From NCBI RefSeq assembly GCF_019721995.1, contig NZ_BLYC01000003.1:62001-126000 (forward strand): 64,000 bases of DNA, written 5' to 3'. The stretch is from Bathymodiolus japonicus methanotrophic gill symbiont (GTDB lineage: Bacteria > Pseudomonadota > Gammaproteobacteria > Methylococcales > Methylomonadaceae). Both the position numbers and the translations under genes were made by a program. The first letter of the stretch is position 1. Every line of letters starts with the position of its first letter. This document shows, piece after piece, positions 3,154 through 63,670 of this stretch. Below the pieces are notes generated by a model. The model saw nothing but the letters and a program-made list of their open reading frames with translations. It made no database searches and was not told where the DNA came from.

Positions 3154-3456
3154 GTGACCATTCAAGGCTGGGTCATCTACTTTGGGTTAAGCGAATACTA
3201 CCGACCAATTCCGCTACTGGATCAATGGATACGACGACACATCAGAATGTGCTATTTAAAACAATGGCGCAGGATCCGTATTCGTAATCCGATGCGATTA
3301 GGTGTCTCTAAATCAGTGGCAATCAGTTTAGGTATGAGTTCAAAGGGATATTACCGCCTAGCGAAAACCAAGGCGGTACAACTTGCTTTAAATAACAACT
3401 GGCTAAAATCGCAAGGGTTGGTCTCGGCTAAAGGGCAATGGGTGAAGTTCCATTAA
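3154..3456 (+). pseudogene. Group II intron maturase, C-terminal fragment
   Basis: The reading frame carries the end of a group II intron reverse transcriptase/maturase: GWVIYFGLSEYYRP, then LDQWIRRHIRMCYLKQWRR and LGVSKSVAISLGMSSKGYYRLAK, which are the thumb/maturase X region motifs of LtrA-type proteins. The reverse transcriptase palm (with YADD) is absent, so only about 95 of the usual 400-plus residues remain. No convincing intron domain V hairpin was found after the stop. It is a remnant of a retroelement, with no function expected. The internal ATG at 3154 is not a real start. Confidence 0.8.
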
Positions 3457-27363: not shown

Positions 27364-29065
27364 TCACCCAGCAGAACAATACTTTAATGATGCTGTTGGC
27401 CCTAAGCGCCCTAAATCTCTGCCAATCATATGTTTTCCTGATGGCATCAGTTGAAACACATCCTTTATTAATTCACCTAACTCTTTCAGCTTATCACCAG
27501 GATCTGGAAACTCTAGCAATGACGTGATGAACTTAAGCAGTACATCCATTTGAGACTTGCGCTGTAAGCTTCCTACGGTATACGCAGGTAGTTTGCTTTC
27601 AATGCGGGCTATTTGCTCTGGGTGAAGGAGAAGGCAATGGTCAAACAAAAGACTCAGAATCAGGCCACGGCTTGATCCCTCTTCATCTAATTGTTTGGCC
27701 TCACGCCCCCATCCTTCATAAAGCTTCCAGTCCTCAAAGAAAACCTCAATCAGCCATCTCAACGTATAGGCTTGAATAATATCTTGTGTGCGCCAAGTCA
27801 GGTCTGTCGCCACTAAATAGCGATAGTCGTTTTCACCGTCATATTTTAAGGCAATGACAAAGCGTTTTTTACTGTGAGAACTCACCTTCAATCGTGCACT
27901 GCTGACAGTCACTTTAATCTCTTTGCCGCCACGTACACGTATTATCTGATCAATGCCTTTGTTAATCGAATTAAAGTAGCTCTCGACTGACCTTATTCTA
28001 CCTCTATATTCAATATTTTGGTTTTTACGTAATTGGCTAATCACCTACGAGCCTCCAGATTCTTTAACGGCTTCGTCCATAAAGGCTTTTTCACCATACA
28101 GCGCATCAGCCAGTACGCCTTTAATTTTAATCAGGCTATGCGCAACTTTAAACTCTTTTAATAAGCCTAATGCAATCTCTGTTTTGGTCGGGTAGGCACT
28201 GTCACGTTCAGGCTTAATAGGCCGATCTTTTTTTGCTATACCGCTCTTTTTCAACCCTTTATCTTCTTTATCCCACTGCTTTAAGGCTGGATCCGGCATA
28301 TAAAAGAAAAAACCGACAGGCACTGTTTGGGGAGTCGCTATTTTTGCGAAAGCTTGTTTTGGGCATCCCAGCCCAAGCAAGCAGCAAAAACTTAACGCGA
28401 CCACTTATGCCTCCGGCGGCCCCGATTCGTCCTCGTCACCTCGTCCCGACCCAACAAGGGGTCGGAACATAGGCTCCAAATGACTTGACGCCGTGTCGGA
28501 TGGCCTTTTATTTTGTCTCCACCTTCGCTAACGCTCAGACTCCGACAAAATAACGGCCCTACGGCTATCGCGGACTAAAAATCATCACTTCGCTTAGGCT
28601 CCGTTTCCCTGATTTTCAGCGAATGGATGAGGTAACTAGCAGCAATAATACTATCGTTTGTCCATTAACATACCCGCCGGAGCCTTTGTGTTTCTGCTTG
28701 TAAACCTTATAAATACGTTTTGTAGACTTAGATCGTGCTCGGTCTGATTCATCAAAGGCCAACACACCTTCAGTAATGCCATAACGTTTTAAAATTAAGA
28801 CCACACTCACCCGTAGCAACCAGTCCCAGGGTATACTTGCTTTACGAAACACCCAGGATAATGCGGCTACTTTGCAATCTCCAAGGCTTGCTCGCTCAAA
28901 CTTAGCCCAGCAAACAGAGTTCATTAGCAGTATGCCCGTTAAACAAGTGCCCAACCAAGCGGCTTGAATCCGTGTCAAAGCGGCTCCGGGTTTTAGCTGA
29001 TTGAGCGCATCATTTAAATCGTCAATATAGCTTTGGATAAAGGTGGCTGGGGCATTCATTAACAT
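27364..29065 (-). pseudogene. IS-B transposase interrupted by SE-B
   Basis: Same protein family as 21924-23402 with the normal C-terminus (LGRLGPTASLKYCSAG). Length without the 295 bp element is 1407 bp, exactly 469 codons. SE-B is in antisense orientation here, between codons for VTSSI and TVPVGFFFY (flanks ACTGT and AATGG in plus-strand reading). A separate nonsense change (CAG to TAG in GGSQVISQL, about 28045) would keep it inactive even without the element. Start ATG at 29065. Confidence 0.92.
28327..28621 (+). mobile_element. SE-B element, copy 2 (295 bp)
   Basis: TTGGGGAGTCGC to TTTTCAGCG. The empty site GGCACTGTAATGGATG occurs intact in IS-B copy 1 (about 22945-22965); here it is split as GGCACTGT / AATGGATG with nothing added or lost. 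NNNG = AATG. It lies antisense to the gene, which excludes an intron-type spread. Confidence 0.95.
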
Positions 29066-34199: not shown

Positions 34200-35901
34200 T
34201 CACCCAGCAGAACAATACTTTAATGATGCTGTTGGCCCTAAGCGCCCTAAATCTCTGCCAATCATATGTTTTCCTGATGGCATCAGTTGAAACACATCCT
34301 TTATTAATTCACCTAACTCTTTCAGCTTATCACCAGGATCTGGAAACTCTAGCAATGACGTGATGAACTCAAGCAGTACATCCATTTGAGACTTGCGCTG
34401 TAAGCTTCCTACGGTATACGCAGGTAGTTTGCTTTCAATGCGGGCTATTTGCTCTGGGTGAAGGAGAAGGCAATGGTCAAACAAAAGACTCAGAATCAGG
34501 CCACGGCTTGATCCCTCTTCATCTAATTGTTTGACCTCACGCCCCCATCCTTCATAAAGCTTCAAGTCCTCAAAGAAAACCTCAATCAGCCATCTCAACG
34601 TATAGGCTTGAATAATATCTTGTGTGCGCCAAGTCAGGTCTGTCGCCACTAAATAGCGATAGTCGTTTTCACCGTCATATTTTAAGGCAATGACAAAGCC
34701 TTTTTTACTGTGAGAGCTCACCTTCAATCGTGCACTGCTGACAGTCACTTTAATCTCTTTGCCGCCACGTACACGTATTATCTGATCAATGCCTTTGTTA
34801 ATCGAATTAAAGTAGCTCTCGACTGACCTTATTCTACCTCTATATTCAATATTTTGGTTTTTACGTAATTGGCTAATCACCTGCGAGCCTCCAGATTCTT
34901 TAGCGGCTTCGTCCATAAAGGCTTTTTCACCATACAGCGCATCAGCCAGTACGCCTTTAATTTTAATCAGGCTATGCGCAACTTTAAACTCTTTTAATAA
35001 GCCTAATGCAATCTCTTTTTTGGTCGGGTAGGCTCGGGGAGTCGCTATTTTTGCGAAAGCTTGTTTTGGGCATCCCAGCCCAAGCAAGCAGCAAAAACTT
35101 AACGCGACCACTTATGCCTCCGGCGGCCCCGATTCGTCCTCGTCACCTCGTCCCGACCCAACAAGGGGTCGGAACATAGGCTCCAAATGACTTGACGCCG
35201 TGTCGAATGGCCTTTTATTTTGTCTCCACCTTCGCTAACGCTCAGACTCCGACAAAACAACGGCCCTACGGCTATCGCGGACTAAAAATCATCACTTCGC
35301 TTAGGCTACGTTTCCCTGATTTTCAGCGACTGTCACGTTCAGGCTTAATAGGCCGATCTTTTTTTGCTATACCGCTCTTTTTCAACCGTTTATCTTCTTT
35401 ATCCCACTGCTTTAAGGCTGGATCCGGCATATAAAAGAAAAAACCGACAGGCACTGTAATGGATGAGGTAACTAGCAGCAATAATACTATCGTTTGTCCA
35501 TTAACATACCCGCCGGAGCCTTTGTGTTTCTGCTTGTAAACCTTATAAATACGTTTTGTAGACTTAGATCGTGCTCGGTCTGATTCATCAAAGGCCAACA
35601 CACCTTCAGTAATGCCATAACGTTTTAAAATTAAGACCACACTCACCCGTAGCAACCAGTCCCAGGGTATACTTGCTTTACGAAACACCCAGGATAATGC
35701 GGCTACTTTGCAATCTCCAAGGCTTGCTCGCTCAAACTTAGCCCAGCAAACAGAGTTCATTAGCAGTATGCACGTTAAACAAGCGCCCAACCAAGCGGCT
35801 TGAATACGTGTCAAAGCCGCTCCGGGTTTTAGCTGATTGAGCGCATCATTTAAATCGTCAATATAGCTTTGGATAAAGGTGGCTGGGGCATTCATTAACA
35901 T
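34200..35901 (-). pseudogene. IS-B transposase interrupted by SE-B
   Basis: Identical family to the other IS-B proteins. SE-B (antisense) splits the codons for RDS and AYPTK; removing 295 bp restores 1407 bp with no other stop, thus a full 468 residue transposase. The position differs from that in copy 2 by about 120 bp of IS-B sequence, so the two SE-B insertions are independent events. Confidence 0.92.
35034..35328 (+). mobile_element. SE-B element, copy 3 (295 bp)
   Basis: TCGGGGAGTCGC to TTTTCAGCG. Empty site GGGTAGGCACTGTCACG exists in IS-B copies 1, 2 and 4; here it is GGGTAGGC / ACTGTCACG, with no duplication. NNNG = ACTG. Confidence 0.95.
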
Positions 35902-38150: not shown

Positions 38151-39837
38151 ATGTTAATGAATGCCCCAGCCACCTTTATCCAAAGCTATATTGACGATTT
38201 AAATGATGCGCTCAATCAGCTAAAACCCGGAGCCGCTTTGACACGGATTCAAGCCGCTTGGTTGGGCACTTGTTTAACGGGCATACTGCTAATGAACTCT
38301 GTTTGCTGGGCTAAGTTTGAGCGAGCAAGCCTTGGAGATTGCAAAGTAGCCGCATTATCCTGGGTGTTTCGTAAAGCAAGTATACCCTGGGACTGGTTGC
38401 TACGGGTGAGTGTGGTCTTAATTTTAAAACGTTATGGCATTACTGAAGGTGTGTTGGCCTTTGATGAATCAGACCGAGCACGATCTAAGTCTACAAAACG
38501 TATTTATAAGGTTTACAAGCAGAAACACAAAGGCTCCGGCGGGTATGTTAATGGACAAACGATAGTATTATTGCTGCTAGTTACCTCATCCATTACAGTG
38601 CCTGTCGGTTTTTTCTTTTATATGCCGGATCCAGCCTTAAAGCAGTGGGATAAAGAAGATAAACGGTTGAAAAAGAGCGGTATAGCAAAAAAAGACCGGC
38701 CTATTAAGCCTGAACGTGACAGTGCCTACCCGACCAAAACAGAGATTGCATTAGGCTTATTAAAAGAGTTTAAAGTTGCGCATGGCCTGATTAAAATTAA
38801 AGGCGTACTGGCTGATGCGCTGTATGGTGAAAAAGCCTTTATGGACGAAGCCGCTAAAGAATCTGGAGGCTCGCAGGTGATTAGCCAATTACGTAAAAAC
38901 CAAAATATTGAATATAGAGGTAGAATAAGGTCAGTCGAGAGCTACTTTAATTCGATTAACAAAGGCATTGATCAGATAATACAGGCGCGCCATGCTACCT
39001 CACGAAATTCCGGGACTCCTGTCGCCATAATTCGCTCACCTACGCAGCGGATGGGAGATGCCCTGAACGCCCTGCGTCCGCAACGACTACGCACAAAAGC
39101 CGCTTCGTCATTACTACCTCACTGGCTGGACGGCTATTCGGAATGCAATTCTTGCTCCTCTCGCGTGCTGCTAGCACACGTCGAATCAGCGAATTGCCCT
39201 GTCGCCTATCAGGGACTAAAAATCACCACTTCGCTAAGCTACGTTTCCATGATTTTCAGCGCGTGTACGTGGCGGCAAAGAGATTAAAGTGACTGTCAGC
39301 AGTGCACGATTGAAGGTGAGTTCTCACAGTAAAAAACGCTTTGTCATTGCCTTAAAATATGACGGTGAAAACTACTATCGCTATTTAGTGGCGACAGACC
39401 TGACTTGGCGCACACAAGATATTATTCAAGCCTATACGTTGAGATGGCTGATTGAGGTTTTCTTTGAGGACTGGAAGCTTTATGAAGGATGGGGGCGTGA
39501 GGCCAAACAATTAGATGAAGAGGGATCAAGCCGTGGCCTGATTTTGAGTCTTTTGTTTGACCATTGCCTTCTCCTTCACCCAGAGCAAATAGCCCGCATT
39601 GAAAGCAAACTACCTGCGTATACCCTAGGAAGCTTACAGCGCAAGTCTCAAATGGATGTACTGCTTGAGTTCATCACGTCATTGCTAGAGTTTCCAGATC
39701 CTGGTGATAAGCTGAAAGAGTTAGGTGAATTAATAAAGGATGTGTTTCAACTGATGCCATCAGGAAAACATATGATTGGCAGAGATTTAGGGCGCTTAGG
39801 GCCAACAGCATCATTAAAGTATTGTTCTGCTGGGTGA
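38151..39837 (+). pseudogene. IS-B transposase interrupted by SE-A2
   Basis: Without the 280 bp element the gene is 1407 bp (468 residues) with no stop and all catalytic residues. SE-A2 lies between codons for DQII and RVRGGKEI, in sense orientation. Translation as DNA stands would run through most of SE-A2 in a frame without stop and end at 39285-39287. Confidence 0.92.
38982..39261 (+). mobile_element. SE-A2 element, copy 1 (280 bp)
   Basis: CAGGCGCGCC to TTTTCAGCG. Empty site GATCAGATAATACGTGTACG exists in several IS-B copies; here it is split exactly as GATCAGATAATA / CGTGTACG. NNNG = CGTG. Confidence 0.95.
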
Positions 39838-40365: not shown

Positions 40366-40645
40366 CGCTGAAAATCATGGAAACGGAGCTTGGCGAAGTG
40401 GTGATTTTTAGTCCCTGATAGGCGACAGGGCAATTCGCTGATTCGACGTGTGCTAGCAGCACGCGAGAGGAGCAAGAATTGCATTCCGAATAGCCGTCCA
40501 GCCAGTGAGGTAGTAATGACGAAGCGGCTTTTGTGCGTAGTCGTTGCGGACGCAGGGCGTTCAGGGCATCTCCCATCCGCTGCGTAGGTGAACGAATTAT
40601 GGCGACAGGAGTCCCTGAATTTCGTGAGGTAGCATGGCGCGCCTG
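40366..40645 (-). mobile_element. SE-A2 element, copy 2 (280 bp)
   Basis: Same length and sequence class as 38982-39261, sense to the IS-A transposase. Right flank GGGG. Inserted in a G run (five G left, four right; six in empty copies), so a small duplication or slippage cannot be excluded. Confidence 0.92.
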
Positions 40646-46508: not shown

Positions 46509-46799
46509 CGCTTAAAATCAGGGAAACGGAGCCTAAGCGGAGTGATGATTTTTAGTCTCTGGTAGGCGACAGGGCAATTCGCTGATCCGAAGTGCGCTAG
46601 TAGCGCACGAGGGAGGCAAGAATTGCATTCCGAATAGCCGTCCAGCCATTTGAGGTAGACTTAACTGAGCAGGGTTTTGTGCGTAGTTGAGTAGTTGAGA
46701 CGGACGCAGGGCGACCAGGGCATCTCCCATTCGCTGCGTAGGCGAATGAATGTTGGTGACAGGAGTCCCAGAATGTTGTGAGGTAGCATGGAGCGCCTG
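46509..46799 (-). mobile_element. SE-A3 element in IS66 leader, copy 1 (291 bp)
   Basis: Reads on the minus strand from CAGGCGCTCCATGC (one substitution destroys the GGCGCGCC palindrome) to TTTTAAGCG, right flank TACG. The same insertion is in IS66 copy 2, so SE-A3 entered the IS before it duplicated and now travels with it. Confidence 0.92.
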
Positions 46800-47044: not shown

Positions 47045-48534
47045 TTGAAAATAGACTTCATCGATGTTGATTCCGCAATCAGTCATGCCAAACAGTTACT
47101 TGAAACTGAGCGTGATATATCGCCTGCGCTAAAATCAGCACTGGAAGTGATTCTATTATTAGTCACGGTATTACTCAATCGAGTGACACTGAACAGCAAA
47201 AATAGCAGTAAACCACCTGCAAGTGATCCCAACCGTAAAAAAGGGAATCGAAAAAAATCAGATAAGCCTTCTGGCGGACAAAAATCGCATGTCGGCACGA
47301 CACTTCAAAAAATAGATGACCCGGATGAAATCGAGATCATTACCATTGATCGCCGTACCTTGCCAAAAGGGCGATACACGGCAGATGGCTTTGAAACACG
47401 CCAGGTATTCGATATTGATATCTCAAGGGTAGTGACAGAATACCAGGCGCAACGGTTGATAAATGAAAAAGGGCAGTGTTTTATCGCTCCTTTTCCAGAT
47501 GAGGTTACTAAGGCTGCGCAATATGGTAATGGGATAAAAGCCCATGTGGTTTATCTTTCGCAATATCAGTTATTGCCCTACAACCGAATACAGGAGTATT
47601 TCGCTGATCAATTAGGTATGCCGATTAGTGAAGGCTCTATCTATAATTTCAATGAACTGGCCTATGAGAAGTTGGCTGGGTTTGAAACTATCAGTAAAGA
47701 ACACTTAGTCGAATCAGCGTGCATTCATGCGGATGAAACAGGCATTAATATTAATGGTAAGCGCCATTGGCTACATGGGGCCTCCAATGTTCAGTGGACA
47801 CACTTCTTTCCCCATGCCAAACGTGGCACAGAGGCAATGAATGACATTGGTATTTTACCCCATTTTCATGGGATTTTATGTCATGATCATTGGAAGCCCT
47901 ACTATAAATATGATTGTACTCATTCGCTTTGTAATGCACATCCGCTGAAAATCAGGGAAACGGAGCCTAAGCGAAGTGATGATTTTTAGTCCGCGATAGC
48001 CGTAGGGCCGTTATTTTGTCGGAGTCTGAGCGTTAGCGAAGGTGGAGACAAAATAAAAGGCCCTACGGCTATCGCGGACTAAAAATCTTCACTTCGCTAA
48101 AGCTCCGTTTCCAGGATTTTCAGCGATGGAAGGTACAATACAGAGAATTACTTGGCAAAGCGGAGATCGAATGCCCACCACCCGATAAGCCTAAAGAAGT
48201 AAAACGGGAGCGAATAAAACGCAGTAAAGCTAGAAACTTACTGGAAAGGCTGATTAATTATGAAGAGGATGTCTTGCGCTTCATGACAAATACCTGGGTG
48301 CCATTTACCAATAATGCCGCAGAAAATTCGATTCGGATGACCAAGGTTCAACAGAAAATATCCGGCTGCTTTCGTAGCACCAAGGGTGCAGAGATATTTT
48401 GTCGTGTCAGAGGGTATTTATCAACGTGCCGTAAACAAGGTCTAAGTGCAACTCAGGCAATGACTTGGTCTTTGAGGGAAAGTTACCTGAATTTGCTTTA
48501 TAATTTCATTGAACTACTCAGCTTCGCTGAGTAG
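47045..48534 (+). pseudogene. IS66 transposase (TnpC type), foldback insert and frameshift
   Basis: N-terminal coiled/zinc region (LNSKNSSKPPASDPNRKKG, the IS66 signature SSKPPS-like), then DDE domain: SACIHADETGININGKRHW with catalytic Asp, CHDHWKPYYKYDCTHSLCNAH with the second Asp, and after the insert PFTNNAAENSIRMTKVQQKISGCFRS with the catalytic Glu. A 183 bp foldback element (47943-48125) replaces 133 bp of the gene. A one-base deletion near 48467 changes the C-terminus (TWSLRESYLN for TLVFEGKLPE). Inactive. Confidence 0.88.
47943..48125. mobile_element. Foldback SE element (183 bp, two 3' ends)
   Basis: CGCTGAAAATC ... TTTTCAGCG: two SE-B 3' modules head to head, joined in the TTTTGTC-rich stem, forming one long hairpin. 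It replaces 133 bp that are present in IS66 copy 2 (62396-62528). Both outer junctions obey NNNG: ATGG on the right, GATG on the left read outward. Confidence 0.9.
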
Positions 48535-49177: not shown

Positions 49178-49740
49178 ATGAGTAAGCAAACTAAACCAAA
49201 AAGACCTGTATATAGTCTTGAATTCAAACAAGATGCAGCCAAATTAGTTATTAAGAAAGGATATACCCAGCAACAAGCCGCAGACAGCTTGGGCGTCTCC
49301 TTAAGTACGATTAGGCGCTGGGTTAGAGCAGAACGAGGCCCAGCAGTTGAAGCAAAATCAACGCCTAACTTATATGGTCAAACCGAATTAGTCAGGTTAC
49401 GTAAGGAAGTTGAGCAATTGCGTTTGGAGCGCGAAATATTAAAACAGGCGCGCCATGCTACCTCACGAAATTCCGGGACTCCTGTCGCCGTAATTCGTTC
49501 ACCTACGCAGCGAATAGGAGATGCTCCAGCCGCCCTGCGTCCGCCACAGACTGAGCACAAAGCAGCTCAGTCATGGCTACCTCAAATGGCTCTACGGCTA
49601 TTCGGGATAAAATTTTAGCCTCCCTCGCGCGCTATCGCGCACTTCGGATTGGCAAATTTCCCTGCGCCTTCTGGAGACTATCAGCCCGTCCGGGGCTGAC
49701 AGCGAAGGCAGCGGTCTTCTTTGCGAAAGAAGTCGAATAA
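49178..49740 (+). pseudogene. IS-C OrfA interrupted by SE-A1
   Basis: IS3 OrfA DNA-binding protein: helix-turn-helix TQQQAADSLGVSLSTIRRWVR and leucine zipper LVRLRKEVEQLRLEREIL, then after the element KKAAVFFAKEVE and stop. ATG 49178 chosen (MSKQTKPKRP; a GTG 6 bp upstream is possible). SE-A1 is inserted precisely after the codons EREIL plus K; without it the gene is 303 bp, a standard OrfA of 100 residues. Confidence 0.88.
49445..49704 (+). mobile_element. SE-A1 element, copy 3 (260 bp)
   Basis: CAGGCGCGCC to CTGACAGCG, sense orientation in orfA. Flanks ATATTAAAA and AAGGCAGCG join to the expected ILKKAAVFFAKE. NNNG = AAGG. Confidence 0.95.
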
Positions 49741-60961: not shown

Positions 60962-61252
60962 CGCTTAAAATCAGGGAAACGGAGCCTAAGCGGAGTGATG
61001 ATTTTTAGTCTCTGGTAGGCGACAGGGCAATTCGCTGATCCGAAGTGCGCTAGTAGCGCGCGAGGGAGGCAAGAATTGCATTCCGAATAGCCGTCCAGCC
61101 ATTTGAGGTAGACTTAACTGAGCAGGGTTTTGTGCGTAGTTGAGTAGTTGAGACGGACGCAGGGCGACCAGGGCATCTCCCATTCGCTGCGTAGGCGAAT
61201 GAATGTTGGTGACAGGAGTCCCAGAATGTTGTGAGGTAGCATGGCGCGCCTG
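60962..61252 (-). mobile_element. SE-A3 element in IS66 leader, copy 2 (291 bp)
   Basis: Minus strand from CAGGCGCGCC (61252) to TTTTAAGCG (60962), right flank TACG. Same position as in IS66 copy 1; carried by the IS. Confidence 0.93.
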
Positions 61253-61497
61253 AATAATTAAAAAAGTTCTTGACAGGGTTTTAGTCTGGTTTTTGTGATT
61301 TTTAGTAAACTGCCCAACAGTCGATTAATCCACGCTTTATTGCTTCTATCGCTATAGTCATCACAAAATGTCCCCTTAAACATCTACGACCTCGAAGAAC
61401 TTTTTTATTCGCCTTACAATCGCTTAAAACAAGGAAAATTCGGGATTTAAAACCCATGAGATAATAAGCCTGTCCTTAAAGCAATACAGGTTACCCT

Positions 61498-62907
61498 TTG
61501 AAAATAGACTTCATCGATGTTGATTCCGCAATCAGTCATGCCAAACAGTTACTTGAAACTGAGCGTGATATATCGCCTGCGCTAAAATCAGCACTGGAAG
61601 TGATTCTATTATTAGTCACGGTATTACTCAATCGAGTGACACTGAACAGCAAAAATAGCAGTAAACCACCTGCAAGTGATCCCAAACGTAAAAAAGGGAA
61701 TCGAAAAAAATCAGATAAGCCTTCTGGCGGACAAAAATCGCATGTCGGCACGACACTTCAAAAAATAGATGACCCGGATGAAATCGAGATCATTACCATT
61801 GATCGCCGTACCTTGCCAAAAGGGCGATACACGGCAGATGGCTTTGAAACACGCCAGGTATTCGATATTGATATCTCAAGGGTAGTGACAGAATACCAGG
61901 CGCAACGGTTGATAAATGGAAAAGGTCAGTGTTTTATCGCTCCTTTTCCAGATGAGGTTACTAAGGCTGCGCAATATGGTAATGGGATAAAAGCCCATGT
62001 GGTTTATCTTTCGCAATATCAGTTATTGCCCTACAACCGAATACAGGAGTATTTCGCTGATCAATTAGGTATGCCGATTAGTGAAGGTTCTATCTATAAT
62101 TTCAATGAACTGGCCTATGAGAAGTTGGCTGGGTTTGAAACTATCAGTAAAGAACACTTAGTCGAATCAGCGTGCATTCATGCGGATGAAACAGGCATTA
62201 ATATTAATGGTAAGCGCCATTGGCTACATGGGGCCTCCAATGTTCAGTGGACACACTTCTTTCCCCATGCCAAACGTGGCACAGAGGCAATGAATGACAT
62301 TGGTATTTTACCCCATTTTCATGGGATTTTATGTCATGATCATTGGAAGCCCTACTATAAATATGATTGTACTCATTCGCTTTGTAATGCACATCATTTG
62401 AGGGAATTAACGCGCGCCTAGGAGCAGGATAAACAGGAGTGGGCGCTTGAAATGAAACGACTACTTGAAAAAATGAATGATGCCGTCAATGAAGCAGGTG
62501 GCATGCTACTACATAAAGAAGCAGAAAAATGGAAGGTACAATACAGAGAATTACTTGGCAAAGCGGAGATCGAATGCCCACCACCCGATAAGCCTAAAGA
62601 AGTAAAACGGGAGCGAATAAAACGCAGTAAAGCTAGAAACTTACTGGAAAGGCTGATTAATTATGAAGAGGATGTCTTGCGCTTCATGACAAATACCTGG
62701 GTGCCATTTACCAATAATGCCGCAGAAAATTCGATTCGGATGACCAAGGTTCAACAGAAAATATCCGGCTGCTTTCGTAGTACCAAGGGTGCAGAGATAT
62801 TTTGTCGTGTCAGAGGGTATTTATCAACGTGCCGTAAACAAGGTCTAAGTGCAACTCAGGCAATGACCTTGGTCTTTGAGGGAAAGTTACCTGAATTTGC
62901 TTTATAA
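61498..62907 (+). pseudogene. IS66 transposase with amber stop
   Basis: 469 codons in one frame broken only by TAG at 62419-62421 (after HHLRELTRA, before EQDKQEWALEMKRLLEKMND). Features as in copy 1: SSKPPASDP, HADETGININGKRHWLHG, HDHWKPYYKYD and AAENSIRMTKVQQKISGCFRS. The C-terminus is normal (LVFEGKLPEFAL). A TTG or TTT-proximal start is assumed at 61498 (TTGAAAATAGAC). Low-level amber suppression would give full protein, otherwise dead. Confidence 0.88.
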
Positions 62908-63670
62908 TTTCATTGAACTACTCAGCTTCGCTGAGTAGTTACTTAAAATTAAAGGCGTACTGGCTGATGCGCTGTATGGTGAAAAGCCTTTATGGACGAA
63001 GCCGCTAAAGAATCTGGAGGCTCGCAGGTGATTAGCCAATTAAGTAAAAACCAAAATATTGAATATAGAGGTAGAATAAGGTCAGTCGAGAGCTACTTTA
63101 ATTCGATTAACAAAGGCATTGATCAGATAATACGTGTACGTGGCGGAAAAGAGATTAAAGTGACTGTCAGCAGTGCACGATTAAAGGTGAGTTCTCACAG
63201 TAAAAAACGCTTTGTCATTGCCTTAAAATATGACGGTGAAAACGACTATCGCTATTTAGTGGCGACAGACCTGACTTGGCGCACACAAGATATTATTCAA
63301 GCCTATACGTTGAGATGGCTGATTGAGGTTTTCTTTGAGGACTGGAAGCTTTATGAAGGATGGGGGCGTGAGGCCAAACAATTAGATGAAGAGGGATCAA
63401 GCCGTGGCCTGATTCTGAGTCTTTTGTTTGACCATTGCCTTCTCCTTCACCCAGAGCAAATAGCCCGCATTGAAAGCAAACTACCTGCGTATACCGTAGG
63501 AAGCTTACAGCGCAAGTCTCAAATGGATGTACTGCTTGAGTTCATCACGTCATTGCTAGAGTTTCCAGATCCTGGTGATAAGCTGAAAGAGTTAGGTGAA
63601 TTAATAAAGGATGTGTTTCAACTGATGCCATCAGGAAAACATATGATTGGCAGAGATTTAGGGCGCTTAG

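Follow-up and report, generated by a model that had tools for sequence, protein, structure and literature searches.

Single-end activity in single-strand transposition systems has usually been inferred from rare laboratory events. In IS91, ISCR and Helitron elements, a 3′ hairpin end lies beside the target, and one-ended products with a variable other end are known. In LINE-1 twin priming, inverted structures and target loss arise from two initiations at one locus. Elements of the IS200/IS605 group and their miniature derivatives, which move by peel-and-paste, insert precisely and without duplication next to a short, one-sided target, carry terminal hairpins and are biased in orientation with respect to the lagging-strand template (PMC6006769). 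REP sequences and REPINs, which depend on TnpA-REP (RAYT) proteins, are present in very high copy number, contain hairpins, form short palindromic units with two inverted ends and are presumed to move as single strands (PMC8266576, PMC6006769, PMC3116915). The features listed for these last two groups are shared by the elements considered here, a family that we call SE and of which we found no description in the literature searched.

The window is a stretch of 64,000 nucleotides from the genome of the Bathymodiolus japonicus methanotrophic gill symbiont. Comparison of SE copies with empty sites distinguished three related forms. SE-A measures 280 bp and SE-B about 293 bp; SE-C, of 260 bp, combines the 5′ part of SE-A with a different 3′ hairpin and leaves the CAGCG|NNNG end unchanged. 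All three terminate in a hairpin and CAGCG, followed by NNNG in the target. In 1.02 Mb of this genome NNNG follows 227 of 232 SE 3′ tips (p ~1e-145); read on the complementary strand it is CNNN to the left of CGCTG, with just one base fixed. Nearly every copy has a fixed, complete 5′ end, and the 5′ flanks are little constrained. The full elements have two unlike ends and lack a target duplication, which separates them from classical MITEs derived from DDE elements. Around 959 SE 3′ tips are present in the 4.97 Mb of the genome, and the tip occurs in 34 of 150 relatives, with NNNG next to it in nearly all the loci read. SE is a very abundant element, with hundreds of copies and a distribution across several methanotroph genera. 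Complete copies in the window include the following:

28329 to 28621, plus strand: complete SE-B, precisely inserted into an IS4-like element, 3′ flank AATG
35034 to 35328, plus strand: complete SE-B, precise insertion, 3′ flank ACTG
38982 to 39261, plus strand: complete SE-A, precise insertion, 3′ flank CGTG
49445 to 49704, plus strand: complete SE-C, 3′ flank AAGG

Among 334 distinct SE insertions in 1.35 Mb, 146 had an empty copy for comparison. Exactly zero duplication or loss was seen in 125 of the 146, and 129 were within 3 bp. The 17 with a larger difference include clean losses of, for example, 20, 29, 43, 155 and 182 bp; ordinary SEs, then, delete target at times too. In some of these full-length elements 20–182 bp of target have gone on the 5′ side and NNNG is retained on the 3′ side. 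Complete SEs with a 3′ NNNG and 29–182 bp of target lost 5′ lie at L145:3825-4117, L150:9454-9746, L189:7245-7504 and L196:2850-3109. A 5′ loss of this kind in a minority of insertions, together with a target-linked 3′ end, is what one might expect from target-primed reverse transcription of an SE RNA, in which two priming events followed by joining of the cDNAs could yield a two-ended product. We regard this origin as very improbable, given that retroelements of that type are truncated at the 5′ end whereas SE 5′ ends are nearly always complete, that the reverse transcriptase genes of this genome have no link to SEs, and that no ORF read in it resembled an intact group II intron protein. Looking for a derivative of a group II intron or another structured RNA, we obtained no Rfam match above the gathering threshold in the window and a chance-level hit only with a lax threshold. 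A remnant of the C-terminus of a group II intron protein lies at window 3154-3456 and resembles an intact 430-aa protein of a relative (G015, L235).

How does the locus under study compare with such ordinary insertions? A preliminary description, made from the sequence of the window, had recognised at 47943-48125 a 183-bp unit made of two SE-B 3′ modules placed head to head, with G at position +4 of both junctions and 133 bp of an IS66 element missing. Its coordinates proved exact, and the composition is borne out by the inverted arms and by identity to SE-B. The features of the locus are as follows:

47045 to 47942, plus strand: 5′ part of an IS66-family transposase gene in the ORF list, broken by the foldback, 99.5% identical to 61396-62395
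47943 to 48125, no strand assigned: dual-3′-end foldback SE of 183 bp with inverted arms, of which six more full copies exist in the genome
47943 to 48062, minus strand: left SE-B 3′ portion of 120 bp, haplotype b1 with GTTA in the haplotype table, 100% identical to 28502-28621, 3′ end CAGCG pointing left, outward flank GATG
47943 to 47991, minus strand: predicted left terminal hairpin (DNA fold), CTGAAAATCA..TGATTTTTAG, which recurs alone as 48–51-bp foldbacks
48006 to 48062, no strand assigned: SE-B internal hairpin (DNA fold), GGCCgTTATTTTGTC..GACAAAATAAaaGGCC, at the centre of the foldback, with the join AAAAGGCC|CTACGG at its edge
48063 to 48125, plus strand: right SE-B 3′ module of 63 bp, haplotype b3, 3′ end CAGCG pointing right, outward flank ATGG
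48077 to 48125, plus strand: predicted right terminal hairpin (DNA fold), which recurs alone as 48–51-bp foldbacks
48126 to 48525, plus strand: 3′ part of IS66 beyond the lost segment, 99.5% identical to 62529-62929
62396 to 62528, plus strand: the 133 bp of IS66 copy 2 absent from the foldback copy and kept in 9 other examined IS66 copies

The arms, 47943-48017 and 48051-48125, measure 75 nt each, are 89% complementary and enclose a 33-nt spacer. Against the SE-B 3′ module at 28502-28621, positions 1–120 of the foldback show 100% identity; positions 105–183 repeat that module in inverted orientation. The central hairpin has a predicted DNA fold of -10.7 kcal/mol (z -4.3), and the join at its edge is common to all seven 183-bp copies. 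Read outward, the flanks are ATGG on the right and GATG on the left, so that G stands at +4 on both sides as proposed. The flanking bases 47942 and 48126 map to 62395 and 62529 of IS66 copy 2; the intervening segment measures exactly 133 bp in 9 other examined copies and 133 bp plus an SE-C in one. Two old SE-A copies (window 46509-46799 and 60962-61252) share the same 5′ flanking sequence and each lie upstream of an IS66 copy, which suggests duplication of a composite block.

The unit in the window is not a lone oddity. We found 26 dual-3′-end foldbacks in this genome: 7 of 183 bp, 16 of 48–51 bp built from the terminal hairpin of SE-A or SE-B, and 3 of 29 bp built from the SE-C tip. In all 26 both outer ends are 3′ ends, and G occupies +4 in 49 of the 50 outward junctions read. 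Each of these three sizes falls at an SE hairpin. Some 49-bp units end in GATTTTTAGCG and others in GATTTTCAGCG, the hairpin mismatch being retained or corrected, as would be expected if two strands had paired at a palindrome. At six other Methylococcales loci, mini-foldbacks show NNNG at 11 of 12 junctions; the named records with a mini-foldback are Methylococcaceae, Methylococcales, Methyloglobulus and a Bathymodiolus methanotrophic symbiont. In genome G031, of another genus (L076/L298), the tip pattern matched just one SE-like sequence, an isolated 49-bp foldback flanked on either side by NNNG.

Several related structures were set apart from this class. L138:1242-1698, at first a candidate hybrid SE-C/SE-A foldback, was rejected and is an SE-C nested in an SE-A. 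The most fitting interpretation of the chimera L008 is a 183-bp foldback that received an SE-B insertion and whose right arm was lost by homology. A dispersed 50-bp palindromic repeat in the Bacteroidales MAG CSSed10_331 (L253-L303) has the same outer 11 bp as the SE foldbacks (CGCTGAAAATC..GATTTTCAGCG) and a different loop, with flanks GATG on one side and mostly GCTT on the other; it was left out of the count on account of the loop and of GCTT replacing NNNG on one side, and may be either convergent or distantly related. In one GGGG/CCCC site of an IS4-like transposase gene (window 40366-40645; L168; L171) we observed an SE-A and two different 48–49-bp foldbacks; some target sites are therefore reused.

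Target loss distinguishes the foldbacks from ordinary SEs. It can be measured only where both flanks sit in a multicopy IS, and in all seven such foldbacks target DNA was gone: 133 bp (9 intact copies with that gap), 180 bp (25), 578/579 bp (28), 129 bp (1), 91 bp (54), 43 bp (34) and 120 bp (28). This compares with about 17 of 146 ordinary SEs, 129 of which were precise (Fisher p = 1e-6). At L003, L006, L007, L166, L172, L175, L181 and L185 the flanks never meet within 8 kb in the intact copies fetched, which suggests, short of proof, that target was lost there as well. Deletions are common near mobile elements in general, and the locus might in principle record a simple SE insertion followed by an unrelated deletion and inversion. 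That history is strongly disfavoured: the edges of the deletion coincide exactly with the two borders of the element, NNNG is found at 49 of 50 junctions, and foldbacks of this build occur 26 times in this genome and also in other genera. Nor did an intermediate of such a sequence of events appear, because no loss-free foldback insertion was present among the seven with measurable empty copies.

The arms of the long foldbacks are informative about how many SE ends took part. SE-B copies sort into haplotypes, and the arm pairs are b1/b3 in the window, b3/b3 in two copies, b2/b2 in one and mixed in three more. Throughout its left 120 bp, the copy in the window has a single SE-B haplotype, the linked GTTA included. 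Because the arms differ in haplotype in four of the seven (L001, L005, L006 and L007), two separate SE 3′ ends must have contributed, and we discarded snap-back of a single SE as the only origin; judged from the haplotypes, one strand copied onto itself could not yield four mixed units unless conversion followed. A variant would have one SE strand snap back on its own hairpin and be copied to the end, the resulting two-ended unit then moving with each end choosing an NNNG. Joins placed exactly at hairpins, an internal join identical in all seven and identical arms in three of the seven would all suit such a preformed foldback. We nevertheless hold it to be improbable, as the observed mixture is that of two random SE-B copies, for which about 34% of pairs should be identical, and as the normal precise route should give insertions free of loss, of which none was seen.

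A more serious contender begins with two complete head-to-head SEs at two NNNG sites, which later collapse between their hairpins by replication slippage or end-joining, deleting both 5′ parts and the target between. This two-step origin accounts for arms of differing haplotype, for an NNNG at either flank, for the lost target and for the joins at hairpins, the hairpins providing direct repeats between inverted SEs so that the same joins are predicted. Intact head-to-head pairs are known at comparable spacing, with gaps of 60–321 bp. A mirror product also exists: a 77-bp unit with SE-B 5′ ends outward, GGGGAGTCGC..GCGACTCCCC, at L145:2774-2850 and L249:1846-1922 (G000:C6 and C17), which resembles what collapse of the opposite arrangement would leave and whose flanks do not follow the NNNG rule. 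Its two copies have identical flanks in opposite orientation, being repeated or duplicated contig ends. However, such products are rare, at 1 locus in 1.5 Mb against 26 3′-3′ foldbacks in the whole genome. Pairs within 600 bp in 1.35 Mb comprise 6 intact head-to-head and 7 tail-to-tail, although on the two-step account about half of the head-to-head pairs would have had to collapse, and the strong strand bias of SEs makes close opposite insertions uncommon. The undepleted head-to-head pairs and the single mirror product modestly favour direct joining over pair collapse, the counts being small and not decisive, and we consider the two-step origin possible but rather unlikely.

The model that we prefer, with moderate confidence, is capture of two NNNG sites by 3′ ends, joining through hairpins and loss of the intervening target. 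SEs would be short mobile elements of a non-autonomous kind, in which recognition of NNNG in the target falls to the 3′ hairpin end (..CAGCG). In the case of the window, two separate SE-B 3′ ends would each have engaged an NNNG site of its own in a single IS66 copy, the two sites being on opposite strands. Having the same sequence, the strands of the two elements could pair only at palindromes; an SE hairpin would have linked them, with loss of the intervening 133 bp of IS66. Joining through hairpins would also be why foldback sizes are limited to 29, 48–51 and 183 bp. The intermediates would be single strands attached by one end to the target at a replication fork, joining and loss would fall within one episode, and an enzyme of the HUH/single-strand kind would be at work. 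Among the observations that count against this model, all seven 183-bp copies keep the same side (TAAAA) of the central hairpin, a hint that they have a common origin or that the join is directional. As to the preliminary proposal that each 3′ end acts on its own, that two sites are captured and that the DNA between them is deleted, independent ends and two NNNG sites are largely supported (49/50 junctions, mixed arms, loss in 7/7), whereas deletion and capture as a single concerted event is plausible but unproven, a two-step origin giving the same product.

The orientation of SEs is in keeping with an involvement of replication. Full-length elements lie against the leading strand, as judged by GC skew per contig, in 233 of 299 cases (233:66; p = 5e-23), and their orientation switches at dnaA in contig C6; the strand CNNN|CGCTG.. 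is therefore in the lagging-strand template. Among relatives, orientation was consistent with skew in G076 and not in G070, and the bias is solid for the symbiont genome only.

A search for the responsible enzyme covered Y1 and reverse transcriptase genes and the families PF04986 and PF14319, and found neither an autonomous copy nor a transposase gene with SE ends. The symbiont genome has 22 Y1 matches, mostly fragments, and the loci scanned in it (L039-L043, L046, L052, L055 and L057) show no SE ends except those of ordinary SE copies; in relatives, 27 of 28 loci lack the tip motif. The only intact RAYT among the Y1 loci scanned in this genome, a 222-aa RAYT-like Y1 transposase at L046:1201-1869 (G000:C5), is without an SE end and has inverted repeats of its own, AAAGGGTAGCGTCCCCTTT, unrelated to SE ends. 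PF04986 (Y2 HUH transposase) and PF14319 (its zinc domain) gave no match in the genome, with the positive controls also silent, and the gene could lie in an unsequenced gap. We assign HUH-type transposition from behaviour and not from membership. A wider reading, which we put forward tentatively, is that a single SE end is the unit of insertion in an undescribed replication-coupled system of Methylococcales, which turns into a deletion device when two ends, captured at nearby NNNG sites on opposite strands, are joined via palindromes, and whose enzyme has not yet been recognised. One genome holds hundreds of ordinary SE insertions alongside 26 two-ended products, and the empty sites of several of these products can be read; this natural data set bears on the target-choosing end, the making of the second junction and the origin of adjacent deletions.

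Comparison with the known systems places SE near several of them. The likeness to LINE-1 twin priming is an analogy of mechanism only; in the foldbacks both outer ends are 3′ ends, and no linked reverse transcriptase accompanies the SEs. With IS91, ISCR and Helitron rolling-circle elements SE shares the 3′ hairpin end next to the target; to our knowledge, that family has not been described as showing an orientation bias or hairpin foldbacks. Compared with REP and REPIN sequences, SE ends are CGCTG/CAGCG with no fixed GTAG/GTGG foot, the element is asymmetric, 260–295 bp long, with one target-linked end and an explicit NNNG rule, target loss occurs mainly in the two-ended form, and no RAYT gene examined carries SE ends. 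Compared with IS200/IS605 elements, one target base is fixed instead of the usual 4–5, only 2 nt separate the SE hairpin from the end, too few to fit a guide between cut and hairpin, and a cognate Y1 TnpA in an autonomous relative with the same ends is missing from the loci searched. SE otherwise has the behaviour of the IS200/IS605 type: insertion without duplication or loss (125/146 exact), a one-sided target (227/232) and a replication-linked orientation (233:66).
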